64,000 bases of DNA from Propionibacterium sp. GTDB taxonomy: Bacteria; Actinomycetota; Actinomycetes; Propionibacteriales; Propionibacteriaceae. How positions within the stretch are numbered: position 1 is the first letter of the stretch; every line of letters begins with the position of its first letter. The notes under the pieces were generated by a model. It searched no databases. It saw only the letters and a list, made by a program, of their open reading frames with translations, and was not told the origin of the DNA. Shown one piece after another: positions 10,072 to 18,568 of this stretch. The stretch lies in contig JAAYTZ010000060.1 in NCBI GenBank assembly GCA_012517965.1, forward strand, positions 1-64,000, in the 5' to 3' direction. A program made the position numbers and the translations under genes.

Positions 10072-11274
10072 TCACAACTCGTCGGGACGTTGCAGCCAGT
10101 CGTGGAGCGCGGCCAGGAACAGGGCGCCGGTGTGGCCGTCGGTCACCCGGTGGTCCGCGGCGAGGCTGGCGGTCACCGTCGGCACGGCGGCCACGGCGCC
10201 GTCCACGACGAAAGGCCGCACGGCCAGGCGGCCGAAGCCCACCACCGCCACCTGGGGTGGGGTGATAATGCCGAACACCGTCTCGACGCCCTCCTCGCCC
10301 AGGTTGGTGACGGTGATCGTGGCGTCGCTCAGTTCCGAACTGCGCAGCGTCCAGCTGCGCGCCCGGGCCACGAGGTCGGTGAGCTCACGCATGAGCGTGT
10401 CCAGGTCCTTGGCGGCCACGTCGTGCAGCGCCGGTGCCACCAGCCCAGCCTGCTTCAGCGCGATCGCCACGCCGACGTGTGCCACCGGGGCAGGCCGGAA
10501 CGTGCCGTCGAGGAAGAACCCGTTGAGCCCCGGGACCTCCGCCAGGGCCCGCGCCACGGCCTTCAGCTGCACGACGGCCATCAGCACGCGCTCGGTGATG
10601 GGCCGGGCGGCGTTCCGCTCGGTCAGCCACGCCACGGCGCGTGCCAGCGGGATGGTCTCGGCCAGGTAGTAGTGCGGGATCTCCCGCTTGGATCGGCTCA
10701 TCGCCGCCGCGATCGCCTGCCGCATCAGCGCGGGCCGCTCCGCCGGCGACGCCGCCTCCAGCCGCTCCACCTCGGACGCCGTCGGCGCGGCGGTCCCCGG
10801 CTCCGGGGCGGCCCGTGCGGCGCCGGCGGCGTCCACGTCGGCCAGCGTGATCGCCCCACCGGGCCCGGTGCCCAAGACGCCGGTGAGGTCCAGGCCGAGT
10901 TCCGCGGCGCGCCGCCGCGCCGCGGGCGACACCCGCAGCCGGACGCCCCCCGCTCCGCTCGGCTCCCCGGTCGGCTCCCCGACCGGCTCCCCGACCGGCT
11001 CCTCGACCGGCTCCTCTGGCCCGGCGGGCATCTCCTCGCCCGGGGCGAGGATGGTGGCCATCACCGTTCCGACGTCGATGCGCTCGCCGGGCTCGGTGAG
11101 CAGCGCGCCGACGATCCCGTCAAACCAGATCTCCACGTCGATCGCGGCCTTGGAGGTGTCCACCACCGCGACGACCTGACCCTTGTGCACCACGTCGCCG
11201 GGCTTGACCAGCCACTCGATGAGCTTGCCGGAGTCCATGTCGGCGCCCAGCGACGGCAAGGTGAACTCACGCAC
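10072..11274 (-). CDS. Dihydrolipoamide acyltransferase (E2) of a 2-oxoacid dehydrogenase complex
   Basis: 400 residues from a GTG at 11274 with GGGAGG upstream. Domains in order: a lipoyl domain with Lys42 in [10 protein letters not shown]; a Pro/Glu/Gly linker containing four GEP-type steps; a peripheral-subunit-binding domain ([32 protein letters not shown]); and a C-terminal catalytic domain with the active-site motif DHRVTDG (His375, Asp379). E2 moves the acyl group from E1 via lipoamide to CoA, or possibly, given the adjacent ACP, to phosphopantetheine on ACP; the latter is my inference. The gene overlaps E1-beta by 8 bp. No E3 gene is present. Confidence 0.9.
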
Positions 11275-12235
11275 CGCACACCTCCCGCACCGCCGCGACG
11301 ATCCCGTCCACCGACGGCAGGGCGGCGTCCTCCAGGTGCTTGGCGTAGGGGATCGGCACCTCCGCGCTGCAGACGCGGCGCGGGGCGGCGTCCAGGTCGT
11401 AGAGGCACTCCTCGGCGAGGCCGGCGACGACCTCCCCGGCGAGGCTGCCGGTCTTCCAGCCTTCGTCCACGACGACGACCCGGTGCGTGCGCCGCACGCT
11501 GGCCGCGATCGCCTCCCGGTCGAGCGGCCGCAGCACGCGCAGGTCGAGCACCTCGGCGTCGATCCCCCCGGACGCCAGCGTGGCGGCGGCGGCCAGGGCC
11601 TTGGGCAGGCTGCCGCCGTAGGTGACGATGCTGACGTCGCTCCCGGGGCGCCGGACGGCGGCATGGGTGAGGTCGCAGGCCCAGTCGCCGACCTCCTCCT
11701 CGACGTTGTAGAGCCCGACGTGCTCGAAGATCACCACCGGGTCGGGTTCGGCGAGCGCCGCCGGCAGCATGCCGCGGGCGTCCGCGACGGTGGCCGGCGC
11801 CACCACCCGCAGCCCGGGCACGTGGGCGTACCAGTTCTCCAGGCTGTGGGAGTGCTGCGCGCCGAGCTGGCGCCCGGCCCCGGTGGCCATGCGGATCACG
11901 ACCGGCACGCTGAACTGCCCCCCGGACATGTGCCGGTACACCGCGGCCATGTTCACGATCTGGTCGAGCGCCAACAGGCTGAAGTTCACGGTCATGACCT
12001 CCACCACGGGACGCAGGCCGCCCAGCGCGGCGCCGACGCCCGCCCCCACGAACCCGAGCTCCGACAGGGGGGCGTCCCGGATCCGTTCCGGCCCGAACTC
12101 GTCGTAGAACCCCTTGGACACCGCGTAGGAGCCGCCGTAGCGGCCCACGTCCTCGCCCATCAGGAACACGCGCGGGTCGGCGACCAACGCCTCGTGCAGC
12201 GCCGCCCGGACCGCCTCCCGATACGACATCCTCAT
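11267..12235 (-). CDS. 2-oxoacid dehydrogenase E1 component, beta subunit
   Basis: 322 residues beginning MRMSYREAV; the ATG at 12235 has GGGAGG about 6 nt upstream and overlaps the E1-alpha stop codon. This is the transketolase-like pyrimidine-binding subunit with [19 protein letters not shown], the conserved [17 protein letters not shown] segment, and a C-terminal transketolase domain ([26 protein letters not shown]). With E1-alpha it forms the thiamine-diphosphate heterotetramer that decarboxylates a 2-oxoacid or acetoin. The sequence looks most like pyruvate/acetoin-type E1-beta rather than branched-chain type, but the substrate is not certain. Confidence 0.9.
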
Positions 12236-13229
12236 CGCGCACCTCCCGTCCCGGCGCCGGACGCCGGCGTGACAACGTCGGTCAGCAGGTCCGCGACCGG
12301 CTCCCAGTCGGACGCCTCGGCGAACGCCACCGCGTCGGCGACCTCGGCGTCGGCCGCGGCGTCCAGCGCCGCGAGGCGGGCGTCGTCGAGCGCCCCCGCC
12401 GCCCGCAGCCGGGCGGCCAGGCCCGGGATCGGGTCGCGCTGCTTCCAGGTCTCGACCTCGGCGGGTTCCCGGTACAGGTCGGGATCGAACATCGAGTGGG
12501 CGCGGAACCGGTAGGTGCGCAGTTCCAGGAACGCGGGCCCGCCCTCGTCCCGGACGGACGCCACCGCCTCGGACGCCGCCGCGTGGACGGCGAGCACATC
12601 CATGCCGTCGGCGCTCCAGACCGGCATGTTGTAGGAGGCGGCCTTGGCGGTCAGCTCGGTCTGCGACTGGTGGCGGGCCAGCGCGGTCCCCATGGCGTAC
12701 AGGTTGTTCTCGCACACGAACAGCACCGGCAGCTGCCACAGGGCCGCCAGGTTGGCCGACTCGTGGAACGCACCCTCGGCCATGGCGCCGTCGCCGAAGA
12801 AGCAGGCCGTCACGGCCGGACGCCGCAGCGTGCGGTCGGCCAGCGCGAGGCCGACCGCCAGCGGCAGGCCGCTGCCGACGATCGCCGTCCCGCCGTAGAA
12901 CCGCCGCGACGCGTCGAACAGGTGCATGGACCCGCCCCGGCCGCGGGCGCAGCCGGACGCCTTGCCGAACATCTCGGCCATGATCGCCCGCAGCGGGATG
13001 CCGCGGAGCAGCGCGTGCCCGTGCTCGCGGTAGGTGGCGACGACGTTGTCGGCCTCGGTGAGGGTCGGCAGGACGCCCGCGGCGCAGGCCTCCTCGCCGA
13101 TGTACAGGTGCAGGAACCCGCGGATCTTGGTCGCGCCGTAGAGCTCGGCGCACTTCTCCTCCATGCGGCGGACCCGCAGCATGTCGGTCAACAGCCGGAC
13201 GCCGAGCGCGGCGTCCGGGACGGGATCGG

Positions 13230-13233
<4 letters not shown>
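12232..13233 (-). CDS. 2-oxoacid dehydrogenase E1 component, alpha subunit
   Basis: 333 residues; thiamine-diphosphate-binding subunit. Visible are the N-terminal [32 protein letters not shown], the GSMHLFD loop, the ThDP/Mg motif [20 protein letters not shown]...CENN, and the phosphorylation-loop equivalent [12 protein letters not shown]. These match the PdhA/AcoA group, which act on pyruvate or acetoin. The ATGA overlap with the acyl-CoA synthetase gene upstream and with E1-beta downstream puts it in the middle of a tightly packed operon: synthetase, E1-alpha, E1-beta, E2, ACP. Confidence 0.91.
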
Positions 13234-14993
<1,760 letters not shown>

Positions 14994-15182
14994 CCTGCAC
15001 CCCCGCGGTGATCTCCGGGCGAGGTACCCGGTGCCCCCATGATCCCGCGCGCGGCGCCGGCTGGGAATGGGTACCGGCGGCGAAGTTCGATCCCACCACC
15101 GCGGTCGCCCGAATCTGTGGACGCGGACGCGCGAGAGGAGTTGAATGCGCACGAGCTCACATCCATTCGGGAAAGGACCGCC

Positions 15183-17792
15183 ATGAGCGCGTCGCTCCAG
15201 GACTTCGCAGCCATCCCGACCGGCGACATGCCCGGCGACAGCGTGCAGATCGGCCAACAGCACCTCGACAAGGCCGAACGCATCTTCCCGCGCCTGCTGG
15301 AGCTGCTGGAGCCCGTGCTGGCCGCCAGCCCGCACCGGCGGGCGATCGTGGCGGTGCACGGCGGCTCCGGGGTCGGCAAGTCCGAGATCGGGTCGCTGCT
15401 GGGCGAGATGCTCCGTCGGGCCGGCCTCGGCGCCTACGTGATGTCCGGCGACAACTACCCGCGTCGCATCCCGGCCGCCAACGACGCCGAGCGGCTGCGG
15501 CGGTTCCGCACCGGCGGCGTCCAGGGCCTGGTGGCGTCCGGGCAGTACACGCCGGACGCCCGCGCGCAGCTCGCCGCGCTGCAGGCGTCCGGGGCGGACG
15601 CCGACGCCGGGCTGGTCGCCGAGCACCCCTGGCTGGCCGAGTACCTCAAGGCCGGACGCCGCGCGCTGGCGTCCTATCTCGGGACGAAGGAGGAGATCGA
15701 CTTCGACGAGGTCAACGGGATCTTCGCGGCGTTCAAGGGCGGGGCGGACACCATCCTGTTGAAGCGGATGGGCCGCGTCGAGGGCGACCTGTGGTACGAC
15801 CCGGTCGACTTCTCCGGGGTGAACGTCCTCGTCGTCGAGTGGACGCACGGAAACAACGACCTGCTGGAGGGCGTCGACGTCCCGATCCTGCTCAACTCGA
15901 CGCCGGAGGAGACGCTCGCCCACCGCCGCGCCCGCGCCCGGGACGGCGCCACCGACAGCCCCTTCACCATGCTCGTGCTGGCCCTCGAGCAGGCCAAGCT
16001 GCACTCCCAGGCCCACCGCGCCAAGATCATCGTGTCGAAGTCCGGTGAGCTGCTCGACTACGCGGCCTATCTCGAGCAGATGGGGGCCACCACCGGTGCC
16101 GGGCCCATGCTCAACGTGTACCCCGACAGCATCGGCGGCGATGTCGCCGGGCTGGTGGCGCTGCTGAGCGAGCCCGCCCTGGCGGACGCGTTCAGCTCGG
16201 TCTACGTGCTGCCCAGCCTCTTCAACACCGACCTCGACCGGGGCTTCTCGGTCATCGACTACTCACTCAACGACCTCTACGCGACCCCGGCGGACCTGGT
16301 CGCCCTGGCCGAGACCGGCGTCGACTTCAAGTTCGACTTCATCCTCAACCACGCCTCGGTTCTGTCGCCGCAGTTCTCCGACCTGCTGGCCAAGGGGGAC
16401 CGGTCGAGGTTCAAGGACTTCTTCATCGACTGGAACGCCTTCTGGGCCGGCCACGGCACCATGACCGAGGCGGGGTACGTCCAGCCCGATGCCGCTCTCA
16501 TCGCCGACATGTTCTTCCGCAAGCCGGGCCTGCCGATCCTGATGGTGCGGTTCCCCGACGGCACCGACCGGCCCTACTGGAACACCTTCTACCAGGAGGT
16601 GCGCTACCCGCGGCCCGACGCCCAGGACCTCATGGCCGCCACCGGCCTGCAGTATGCGTCGGCCGACGCGCTGGCGTCCGTGGTGAACGCGCAACTGGAC
16701 GCCGGCCGTGCGGCGTCCGAACTCGACCTGGGCCGGTTCGCCGCGCAGCGGGCGGCCGTCGTGGAGTACCTCGACTCCCGACGCAAGTACCTCGGCCAGA
16801 TGGACCTCAACATCAAGTCCCCGCTGGTGTGGGAGTTCTACGCCGACACCCTGGCCAAGCTCGCCGGCTACGGGGCGCGCATCGTCCGGCTGGACGCCTT
16901 CGCCTACGCCCCCAAGGAGCCCGGCGCGCGGAACTTCCTCAACGACCCCGGCACCTGGGACCTGCTCGACCGCGTCAAGGCGCTCGCCGACCGGCACGGC
17001 GTCGCGCTGCTGCCGGAGATCCACTCCCGCTACGAGGAGAAGATCCACGAGGTGATCGCCGCCAAGGGCTACCTGACGTACGACTTCTTCCTGCCCGGCC
17101 TGCTGATCCACGCGTTCGAGCAGGCGGACGCCACCAAGCTCAAGGCGTGGATCGCCGACCTGCTGGCGCAGCGGATCCGGACCGTCAACATGCTGGGCTG
17201 CCACGACGGCATCCCGCTCCTCGACCTCAAGGGCCTGCTCACCGACGACGAGATCGACCACGTCATCGCCACCGTCAAGGGCCGCGGCGGCCACGTCAAG
17301 GACCTGCACGGCGAGAAGAAGATGTACTACCAGGTCAACGCCACCTACTACAGCGCCCTCGGCGCCTCGGACGAGGCCCTGCTCCTCGCCCGGGCGATCC
17401 AGTTGTTCATGCCCGGCAAGCCGCAGATCTGGTACCTGGACCTGTTCGCCGGCGAGAACGACCTGGCGGCCGTCGAGAAGGCTGGCTCCGGCGGCCACAA
17501 GGAGATCAACCGGACGAACCTCACCGCGGCCGACGTCGCCGAGGGGCTCGGCAAACCCATCGTGCAGCGGCAGTTGGACCTACTCCGGTTCCGGAACACC
17601 TGCCCGGCGTTCGGGTTCGACGCCGCGTGCACCGTCGCGGACACCCCGGCGCACCGGATCGCGATCACCTGGACCCGCAACGGCCACACCGCCACCTTGG
17701 ACGCCGACCTGGCGGCGCAGTCCTTCGCCGTTCGGGCCACGGACGCCGAGGGTCGCGCGACCTTCGCCCTCACCCAGGGGCAGCCGGGGTGA
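15183..17792 (+). CDS. Fusion of a P-loop kinase domain and a GH13_18-type sucrose/glycoside phosphorylase
   Basis: 869 residues from the ATG at 15183 (GAAAGG 6 nt upstream). Residues 1-300 form a P-loop kinase-like domain with Walker A GGSGVGKS near residue 60, then [11 protein letters not shown] and [10 protein letters not shown], resembling uridine-kinase/adenylylsulfate-kinase folds. From about residue 308 ([16 protein letters not shown]) the protein is a GH13 subfamily-18 phosphorylase: DFILNHAS, nucleophile Asp571 in VRLDAFAY, acid/base Glu612 in LLPEIHSRY and Asp675 in [11 protein letters not shown] are all present. Such enzymes split sucrose, sucrose-6'-phosphate, glucosylglycerate or glucosylglycerol with phosphate to give glucose-1-phosphate. 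The acceptor is unknown; [13 protein letters not shown] resembles the non-sucrose members more than classic sucrose phosphorylase. The kinase might phosphorylate the released acceptor (inference). Confidence 0.85.
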
Positions 17793-17924: not shown

Positions 17925-17953
17925 GCCAACCCAGAGTGACGAACGAGGACGGC

Positions 17954-18568
17954 ATGCCCAAGATCTCCGCCCCCACCGTGAAGGAGCACCGGCAGGCGAT
18001 CCTGACCAAGCTGGTGGACGCGGCCGAGGCCATCCTCCGCCAGGAGGGCATCGATGCGCTCACCGCGGGCGCGGTCACGGCCCAGGCAGGCATCGCGCGC
18101 AACAGCATCTACCGCTACGTCGACTCGGTCGACGATCTGCGTGGCCTGGTGCTGGGGCGTTACCTGCCCCGCTGGACGCAGGCGGTGGACGAGCGGGTGT
18201 CCGCGCTCACCGAGCCCCGCGAGCGGGTGCTGGAGTGGGTGCGAGCCAACCTGCAGCAGGCGGCCGTCAACGGCCACGGCTGGCTGATGGAGGTGGCCCG
18301 CTCCACACGGCTCGACAACGGCCTCCAGATGGATCTCGAGCATGCCCACGACACCCGCGACTTCCTCGCCGAGGGGCTCGCCGACCTCGGCTTGGTGAAC
18401 ATGCCGATCCGCGCGGAGATGATCCGGGCGGTGGTGGACGCGGGCTTCCGGTCGTTGGACTCCGGCGAGCCGCTGACCGACGTGACCCACTGGGCGGTGG
18501 TCGCGGTCGAGGCGATCATCGCCGCCTCCGAGGCGCGGGGTGACCGGCCCGGGGCCGTCGTCGGCTGA
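17954..18568 (+). CDS. TetR family transcriptional regulator
   Basis: 204 residues from the ATG at 17954 (GAGG 6 nt upstream; a GTG at 17936 is an in-frame alternative). The N-terminal helix-turn-helix reads ILTKLVDAAEAILRQEGIDALTAGAVTAQAGIARNSIYRYVDSVDDL, the classic TetR pattern ending in the IYRYV recognition helix. The C-terminal ligand-binding domain (residues 60-204) is all-helical and gives no hint of ligand. It follows the kinase-phosphorylase fusion gene in the same direction, but a hairpin separates them. A dyad lies in its own promoter region. Confidence 0.88.
   Translation: MPKISAPTVKEHRQAILTKLVDAAEAILRQEGIDALTAGAVTAQAGIARNSIYRYVDSVDDLRGLVLGRYLPRWTQAVDERVSALTEPRERVLEWVRANLQQAAVNGHGWLMEVARSTRLDNGLQMDLEHAHDTRDFLAEGLADLGLVNMPIRAEMIRAVVDAGFRSLDSGEPLTDVTHWAVVAVEAIIAASEARGDRPGAVVG

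Follow-up and report, generated by a model that had tools for sequence, protein, structure and literature searches.

A stretch of 64,000 nucleotides from Propionibacterium sp. (contig JAAYTZ010000060.1, positions 1 to 64,000; hereafter the window) carries one gene in which a sucrose-kinase-like domain is joined to a sucrose-6F-phosphate phosphorylase (SPP) domain of glycoside hydrolase subfamily GH13_18. Its product is probably a bifunctional enzyme of sucrose catabolism, whose kinase would make sucrose-6F-phosphate and whose phosphorylase would then split it; homology and conserved active-site residues give us good confidence in this assignment. Both domains are of known kinds and their association is already in print. 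What appears new is the fusion of the kinase to SPP, of which no description was found in the literature searched, most subscription journals lying outside the reach of that search. The gene is laid out as follows.

15169..15177, + strand: putative ribosome-binding site GGGAAAGGA, proposed from the sequence, preceding the ATG at 15183
15183..17792, + strand: whole gene, sucrose-kinase-like domain plus GH13_18 sucrose-6F-phosphate phosphorylase domain, 869 amino acids plus stop
15204..16094, + strand: kinase domain, residues about 8-304, from homology to the Agathobacter rectalis AgaSK-type protein and from the AlphaFold model
16071..16100, + strand: short junction between the domains, residues about 297-306, from profile matches
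16101..17780, + strand: GH13_18 phosphorylase domain, residues about 307-866, with 6s9u as the best solved relative

Translation of 15183-17792 gives a single frame free of stops. A longer version of the same frame opens at 15039 in the open-frame listing; 15183 seems the better start, because the regions matched by profiles and orthologs open near residue 8. An initial annotation, made from the DNA letters only, had described one 869-residue frame with a P-loop kinase fused to a GH13_18 phosphorylase, and this description was confirmed, as the frame is intact and recurs in other genomes. Full-length kinase-phosphorylase frames were found in 10 of the 57 genomes searched, the window's own included, and the other nine are 68-81% identical to the window protein. 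The fused frame is also present in 19 of 80 named loci, some of which lie on the same contigs as those found in the 57-genome search; strains bearing it include Propioniciclava soli YIM S02567 (L045) and Propionibacterium sp. oral taxon 192 F0372 (L062). In all 19 fused loci of the 80-locus set the match to the kinase profile adjoins that to the phosphorylase profile or is separated from it by at most 4 residues. This recurrence, in nine further genomes and 19 named loci, rules out a frame fusion created by sequencing error and indicates that the fusion is genuine. A model of the whole protein, built with AlphaFold from 90 aligned rows (the window protein and 17 of the 19 fused proteins, together with 38 of the 53 kinases and 34 of the 61 SPPs that are encoded on their own), reached a mean predicted local distance difference test (pLDDT) score of 89.3 and a predicted template modelling score of 0.80; a single-sequence model was set aside for its mean pLDDT of 36.8.

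That the C-terminal half belongs to the clade of strict SPPs is strongly supported by its homology and its predicted active site. Its closest solved relative is the SPP of Ilumatobacter coccineus (IcSPP, structure 6s9u; E 1.1e-175), onto which the AlphaFold model falls with a Foldseek E of 3.2e-59 and a VIA Z of 50.0 (root-mean-square deviation 1.8 over 507 residues), and in a split BLAST it is 55% identical to the SPP of A. rectalis. The Asp/Glu/Asp catalytic triad by which a GH13_18 phosphorylase is recognized is found within the GH13 barrel. This triad, and the Walker A motif described below, lie where the initial annotation had placed them, and the triad aligns with Asp223/Glu264/Asp327 of IcSPP.

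16605..16763, + strand: domain B insertion, residues about 475-527 (~53 residues), not in 6s9u or A. rectalis SPP, in 81/84 relatives
16893..16895, + strand: Asp571, catalytic nucleophile, equivalent to IcSPP Asp223, 84/84 relatives
17016..17018, + strand: Glu612, acid/base, equivalent to IcSPP Glu264, 84/84 relatives
17205..17207, + strand: Asp675, transition-state stabiliser, equivalent to IcSPP Asp327, 84/84 relatives
17316..17333, + strand: loop A signature KKMYYQ (KxxYYQ), residues 712-717, full motif in 79/84 relatives
17499..17501, + strand: Lys773, equivalent to IcSPP Lys434, 84/84 relatives, ranked as the top fructose-6-phosphate contact

It was reported previously that IcSPP uses sucrose-6F-phosphate alone, and both its catalytic residues and its docking-predicted fructose-6-phosphate residues were named (PMC6720575). 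The window protein has the same amino acid at nine of the named positions: Arg446, Asp571, Glu612, Asp675, Lys706, Lys712, Tyr716, Gln717 and Lys773, corresponding in IcSPP to the three catalytic residues and to R152, K364, K373, Y377, Q378 and K434. Eight of these positions are invariant in all 84 relatives, and the ninth, Lys712 of loop A, is kept in 79. All the contacts predicted by docking, Arg152/Glu264/Lys364/Gln378/Lys434 of IcSPP, are thereby matched, as Arg446/Glu612/Lys706/Gln717/Lys773. The KxxYYQ loop A has been described as the signature of the strict SPP clade (PMC7178133), and the position of Lys773 is occupied by Arg in four other GH13_18 structures for which alignments were shown, as read by eye. 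Since Arg446 and Lys706 also line up (by eye) in plain sucrose phosphorylase, the discrimination is carried by loop A and Lys773; the initial annotation was thus right that the active site is unlike that of classic sucrose phosphorylase. Automatic annotation may mislabel the protein, since its Pfam search returned no family above cut-off and the best NCBIfam model, the sucrose phosphorylase equivalog TIGR03852, scored 323.1 bits and missed its cut-off of 334.4; six further NCBIfam models match weakly. Such a score fits a relative of plain sucrose phosphorylase that is not itself one.

The same residues bear on the suggestion, made in the initial annotation, that the substrate is an internal compatible solute such as glucosylglycerate. 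A glucosylglycerate or glucosylglycerol phosphorylase combined with a kinase for its acceptor, and serving compatible-solute turnover, would come from the same GH13_18 subfamily; glycerate kinase or related genes frequently accompany glucosylglycerate phosphorylases (PMC7178133), and the neighbouring open reading frames (ORFs) tested hold no transporter. However, glucosylglycerate phosphorylases have Glu in loop A where others have Gln, and glucosylglycerol phosphorylases have a VGA motif there (PMC6720575); neither mark occurs in the window protein, which has YYQ within KKMYYQ, and this loop together with Lys773 groups it with the strict SPPs. Glucosylglycerate is therefore an unlikely substrate, and we consider compatible-solute turnover as a whole very improbable. 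The accompanying remark that no sugar transporter is adjacent proved correct for the ORFs tested; as a pointer to an internal solute it says little, because the relatives of the fused gene have no repeated neighbour either.

For the N-terminal half, family searches indicate no more than a general relation to P-loop kinases: it falls within the wide P-loop kinase group, nearest to APS kinases, and all Pfam and NCBIfam matches of the window's own sequence, those to the APS kinase and uridine kinase families included, lay below cut-off. A more specific relation emerged when 72,556 plasmid records were searched by tblastn with the full-length window protein. Among the 337 records matched, a single one, a plasmid of A. 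rectalis, covered at least 80% of the query (97%); the kinase half resembles the C-terminal end of its 'alpha-galactosidase' gene and the phosphorylase half the overlapping next gene. Judged by length and gene order, this galactosidase is of the AgaSK type, and its C-terminal domain is 35% identical to the kinase half (E 5e-55, split BLAST in a two-protein database). The isolated kinase domain of Ruminococcus gnavus AgaSK phosphorylates sucrose with adenosine triphosphate (ATP), with a Km of 1.0 mM, compared with 3.1 mM for the whole enzyme (PMC7688924). The fusion to a GH36 alpha-galactosidase is a feature of AgaSK that is dispensable for the kinase reaction; it is absent from the window frame, whose length is accounted for by the kinase and GH13_18 domains. 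Within the kinase half the following elements were recognized.

15360..15383, + strand: Walker A GGSGVGKS, residues 60-67; Gly63, Gly65 and Lys66 in 74/74 kinases
15450..15461, + strand: DNYP motif, residues 90-93, candidate substrate-binding or catalytic loop; Asp90, Asn91 and Tyr92 in 74/74 kinases
15501..15641, + strand: kinase insertion, residues about 107-153, not in the A. rectalis protein, present in 71/74 kinases
15837..15839, + strand: Glu219 of the EWTHG motif, candidate Walker-B-like acid, 74/74 kinases
15924..15944, + strand: Arg248/Arg251/Arg253/Asp254, candidate lid, 74/74 kinases

Apart from Gly63, Gly65, Lys66, Asp90, Asn91, Tyr92, Glu219, Arg248, Arg251, Arg253 and Asp254, identical in all 74 aligned kinases, the remaining Walker A positions are nearly as constant: Gly60, Gly61 and Ser62 occur in 73 of 74 (the remaining row is gapped) and Ser67 in 73, with Thr in one. 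Such conservation rules out a degenerate nucleotide site. It also bears on the idea that the phosphorylase is regulated by an N-terminal domain that senses nucleotides and has no catalytic role. The failure of the window's kinase half to match any Pfam or NCBIfam family above cut-off would suit a sensor; on the other hand, all 74 kinases, separate genes included, agree at Lys66 and at ten further putative active-site positions, and kinase activity has been reported for a homologue, so that we find this idea extremely improbable. That the N-terminal half is a known non-kinase module of ordinary sucrose phosphorylases was likewise rejected as far as tested: the window protein has no match in PHROG, its N-terminal half has none above cut-off in Pfam or NCBIfam, and the alignments of the 14 GH13_18 chains among the structure matches begin no earlier than residue 294. 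The match list of that search, made with the whole-protein model, was filled by GH13 structures, and the kinase part was barely probed by it.

Given its homology to the sucrose-kinase domain with which the GH36 AgaSK proteins of gut Lachnospiraceae end, the kinase half most likely makes the substrate of the phosphorylase, and the order of reactions very probably follows the order of domains, with the kinase acting before phosphorolysis and not on the released acceptor. In the first step, which we infer for the kinase domain, sucrose and ATP would give sucrose-6F-phosphate and adenosine diphosphate. In the second, assigned to the GH13_18 domain by homology, sucrose-6F-phosphate and inorganic phosphate would give alpha-glucose-1-phosphate and fructose-6-phosphate, through a double-displacement mechanism in which Asp571 would serve as nucleophile and Glu612 as acid/base. 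Each ATP spent would yield two hexose phosphates without any free hexose, and any channelling would consist in the fusion handing a rare intermediate straight to the enzyme that consumes it. Such an enzyme would be a one-pot catalyst, turning sucrose, ATP and phosphate into glucose-1-phosphate and fructose-6-phosphate.

The initial annotation had proposed the reverse order, in which the attached kinase captures the freed acceptor. In such a scheme the kinase would follow phosphorolysis, converting fructose-6-phosphate to fructose-1,6-bisphosphate or phosphorylating a free acceptor (glycerate, glycerol or fructose). A fusion of kinase and phosphorylase is compatible with either order, and the other type of SPP, from Thermoanaerobacterium thermosaccharolyticum, does have a putative phosphofructokinase gene in its operon (PMC7178133). 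We nevertheless reversed the order, because the acceptor released by a phosphorylase with these SPP residues would already be phosphorylated, as fructose-6-phosphate; moreover, a homologue of this kinase forms part of a type of protein for which sucrose phosphorylation has been demonstrated (PMC7688924). Capture of the product is in our estimate unlikely.

Further evidence that the kinase serves the phosphorylase comes from their joint occurrence. A scan of the genomes of 84,980 species with the phosphorylase half yielded at least 516 relatives, of which the best 80 were kept. A kinase is present at 76 of these 80 loci, whether fused, upstream or cut by the contig end. Fused kinases account for 19, all Actinomycetota by record name or tree labels; another 53 have the same type of kinase encoded separately, directly upstream and in the same orientation; at three that position is occupied by a P-loop kinase of a different kind; and in one (L105) a kinase piece, recognized by eye, is truncated at the contig end. 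Two more of the 80 loci start less than 60 bases from a contig end. The two halves thus occur elsewhere as neighbouring single genes, as the initial annotation had anticipated. In the converse test, 200 genomes of one family, Lachnospiraceae, were searched with the kinase of its member Oliverpabstia intestinalis. The kinase was found in 18, one of them the query's own genome, and SPP was fused or adjoining in all 18 (fused in 4, in the next gene in 12, with the AgaSK type in 2). Records bearing the pair belong to Actinomycetota, Bacillota, Bacteroidota and Pseudomonadota, four phyla, whereas the AgaSK cluster was described as limited to a few Firmicutes (PMC7688924); the spread of the SPP clade over several classes had already been stated (PMC6720575).

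Some loci show other arrangements. In three Marinifilaceae loci (L066, L075, L081) an SPP nested in the main SPP clade is paired with the other (DDYF) kinase type, as if one kinase type had been replaced by the other. In Lachnospiraceae, a GH36-like frame stands directly upstream of a kinase-SPP fusion (L137) and of a separate kinase and SPP (L140); this gene set equals AgaSK plus SPP, joined at other places. In the window's phylum, two loci (L035, L036) have a weaker kinase relative right upstream of a strict SPP gene. Two other weak kinase relatives (L034, L037) stand beside frames other than SPP, as judged by eye. One of the latter (L037, G387 contig 40) encodes a small P-loop kinase with a DNYY motif, flanked by ABC sugar permease-like frames and by a frame whose translation resembles a fusion of beta-phosphoglucomutase with a GH65 phosphorylase; perhaps another disaccharide is processed there in the same way, kinase first. 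In the second (L034, G399 contig 79) the frame after a kinase relative with a DDYY motif is GH13-like but, by eye, unlike SPP.

How often the fusion appeared was addressed by two trees, both made by a quick method; changes of state on them may be gains or losses. In the first (84 rows) the 20 fused rows form one clade with a support of 95 in the Shimodaira-Hasegawa-like approximate likelihood-ratio test (SH-aLRT). In the second, 16 Lachnospiraceae rows were added (L131 being partial) and 16 earlier rows were dropped to thin near-copies; here the fused state needs four changes, at least three of them forced by well-supported branches, and the actinobacterial clade has a support of 83. The single origin suggested by the first tree was not borne out by the second, on which the fusion appears more than once. 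The fused form is present in Actinomycetota and, it appears independently, in Lachnospiraceae.

The fusion is relevant to two published puzzles, the source of sucrose-6F-phosphate and the isomer reported for a related kinase. SPP activity had been linked to a kinase domain and one possible source of the substrate called unknown (PMC7178133); a fused kinase points to an intracellular one. As to the isomer, the kinase might make sucrose-6-glucose-phosphate, with the phosphorylase either accepting that isomer or using imported sucrose-6F-phosphate, so that the two domains would not act in series. Glucose C6 is indeed stated as the site used by RgAgaSK (PMC7688924), and translocation of sucrose-6F-phosphate was proposed (PMC6521584). 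On the other hand, RgSPP is reported as selective for the 6F isomer (PMC7688924) and IcSPP as strict for it, and if the phosphorylase had no use for what the kinase makes, it would be difficult to account for the meeting of kinase and SPP at nearly all loci examined and for the repeated appearance of the fused state on the tree. If the kinase made the 6-glucose isomer, its fusion to a phosphorylase specific for the 6F form would be pointless. We regard domains not acting in series as quite unlikely and infer the 6F regiochemistry, for which the recurrent fusion argues as a prediction. The RgAgaSK product was identified by high-performance anion-exchange chromatography with pulsed amperometric detection and by mass spectrometry, and the main text of that report does not mention nuclear magnetic resonance (PMC7688924).

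A broader proposal is possible, which we offer tentatively and rate at somewhat less than an even chance. The N-terminal family would comprise widespread disaccharide kinases acting on C6 of the fructosyl part of sucrose, and would be the missing source of sucrose-6F-phosphate for bacteria from four or more phyla; the 6-glucose assignment published for its one characterised relative would be wrong, and the recurrent fusion would reflect direct hand-over between the two active sites.

Several observations weigh against the kinase feeding the phosphorylase with sucrose-6F-phosphate. The most direct is the report that R. gnavus AgaSK phosphorylates glucose C6 of sucrose, a product that would not feed SPP (PMC7688924). 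The window kinase is a distant homologue of the A. rectalis domain, with which it shares 35% identity, and has about 47 extra residues. The 80 loci were ranked by likeness to the window protein and drawn from at least 516 relatives, and two of them (L058, L064) have no kinase in the 1.5 and 2.9 kb of DNA upstream; their SPPs are possibly fed by a kinase or transport system elsewhere. No transporter, for sucrose or otherwise, is found among the 10 neighbouring ORFs of the window given to Pfam, and no repeated partner stands beside the fusion among the relatives (Pfam, 101 of 119 ORFs at 17 of the 19 fused loci). Finally, in the 57 genomes a GH32 match is present in 6 of 10 carriers of the fused gene (3 of them weak and partial) and in 25 of 47 non-carriers. 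The own genome has no GH32 match. Replacement of invertase was rejected as a role, there being no inverse relation between the fused gene and GH32 across these genomes; with GH32 as common in carriers as in non-carriers, the fused gene is no simple stand-in for invertase. Surveys of other sugar enzymes gave a GH36 match in 39 of the 57 genomes and four partial S6PP matches in the own genome, and neither proved informative.

Around the gene, 4 of the 10 ORFs given to Pfam matched: 2-oxoacid dehydrogenase E2 and E1, TetR and leucyl-tRNA synthetase. The TetR gene that the initial annotation saw following the fusion is there, at 17936-18565 (Pfam TetR_N, 3.1e-7). The 2-oxoacid dehydrogenase E2 and E1 genes, at 10072-13233 on the opposite (-) strand, are ordinary neighbours and apparently unrelated. 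Around the relatives' loci ORFs were called crudely by script, with frames of 900 aa or more excluded beforehand for the fused loci and of 1100 aa or more for the separate-gene loci. The top neighbour family at fused loci is MFS_1, with 6 of 101 ORFs. Separate-gene loci (115 of 129 ORFs, 21 of 22 chosen loci) had as their most frequent families ATP-binding cassette (ABC) permeases (8), alpha/beta hydrolases (8), periplasmic binding proteins (7) and LacI (6).

Comparison with known systems places the window protein among four relatives. With the strict SPPs (EC 2.4.1.329, GH13_18; IcSPP, 6S9U, and R. gnavus RgSPP) it has in common the fold, the triad, the fructose-6-phosphate contacts and the KxxYYQ loop A; in published descriptions those enzymes stand alone, whereas the window protein has the N-terminal kinase and the domain B insertion of about 53 residues. 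The promiscuous SPP of T. thermosaccharolyticum (6S9V) is also a GH13_18 enzyme and carries out the same reaction as predicted for the window phosphorylase, but with GFDVHQ as loop A, partly other phosphate contacts and an operon containing a phosphotransferase system and a putative phosphofructokinase (PMC7178133). Separate kinase-SPP pairs of Clostridia, Bacteroidota and Alphaproteobacteria have the same domains in the same order and on the same strand, with frame edges within about 220 bases, as two genes in place of one. The same enzyme pair is found in R. gnavus E1, where AgaSK, a GH36 alpha-galactosidase with a C-terminal sucrose-kinase domain, adjoins the SPP gene. Its kinase domain is homologous to ours, as compared through the A. 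rectalis protein of the AgaSK type (35%); the R. gnavus and Eubacterium rectale (= A. rectalis) enzymes are reported as more than 90% identical, and elsewhere in that paper the alpha-gal or sk genes of four loci are given as more than 60% identical (PMC7688924), the kinase genes being at least 44.2% identical (PMC6521584). In Clostridium sp. L2-50 galactosidase and kinase are separate genes (PMC7688924). The kinase is thus fused to a galactosidase in AgaSK, whose published product is the 6-glucose isomer, and in the window to the phosphorylase, without a galactosidase.

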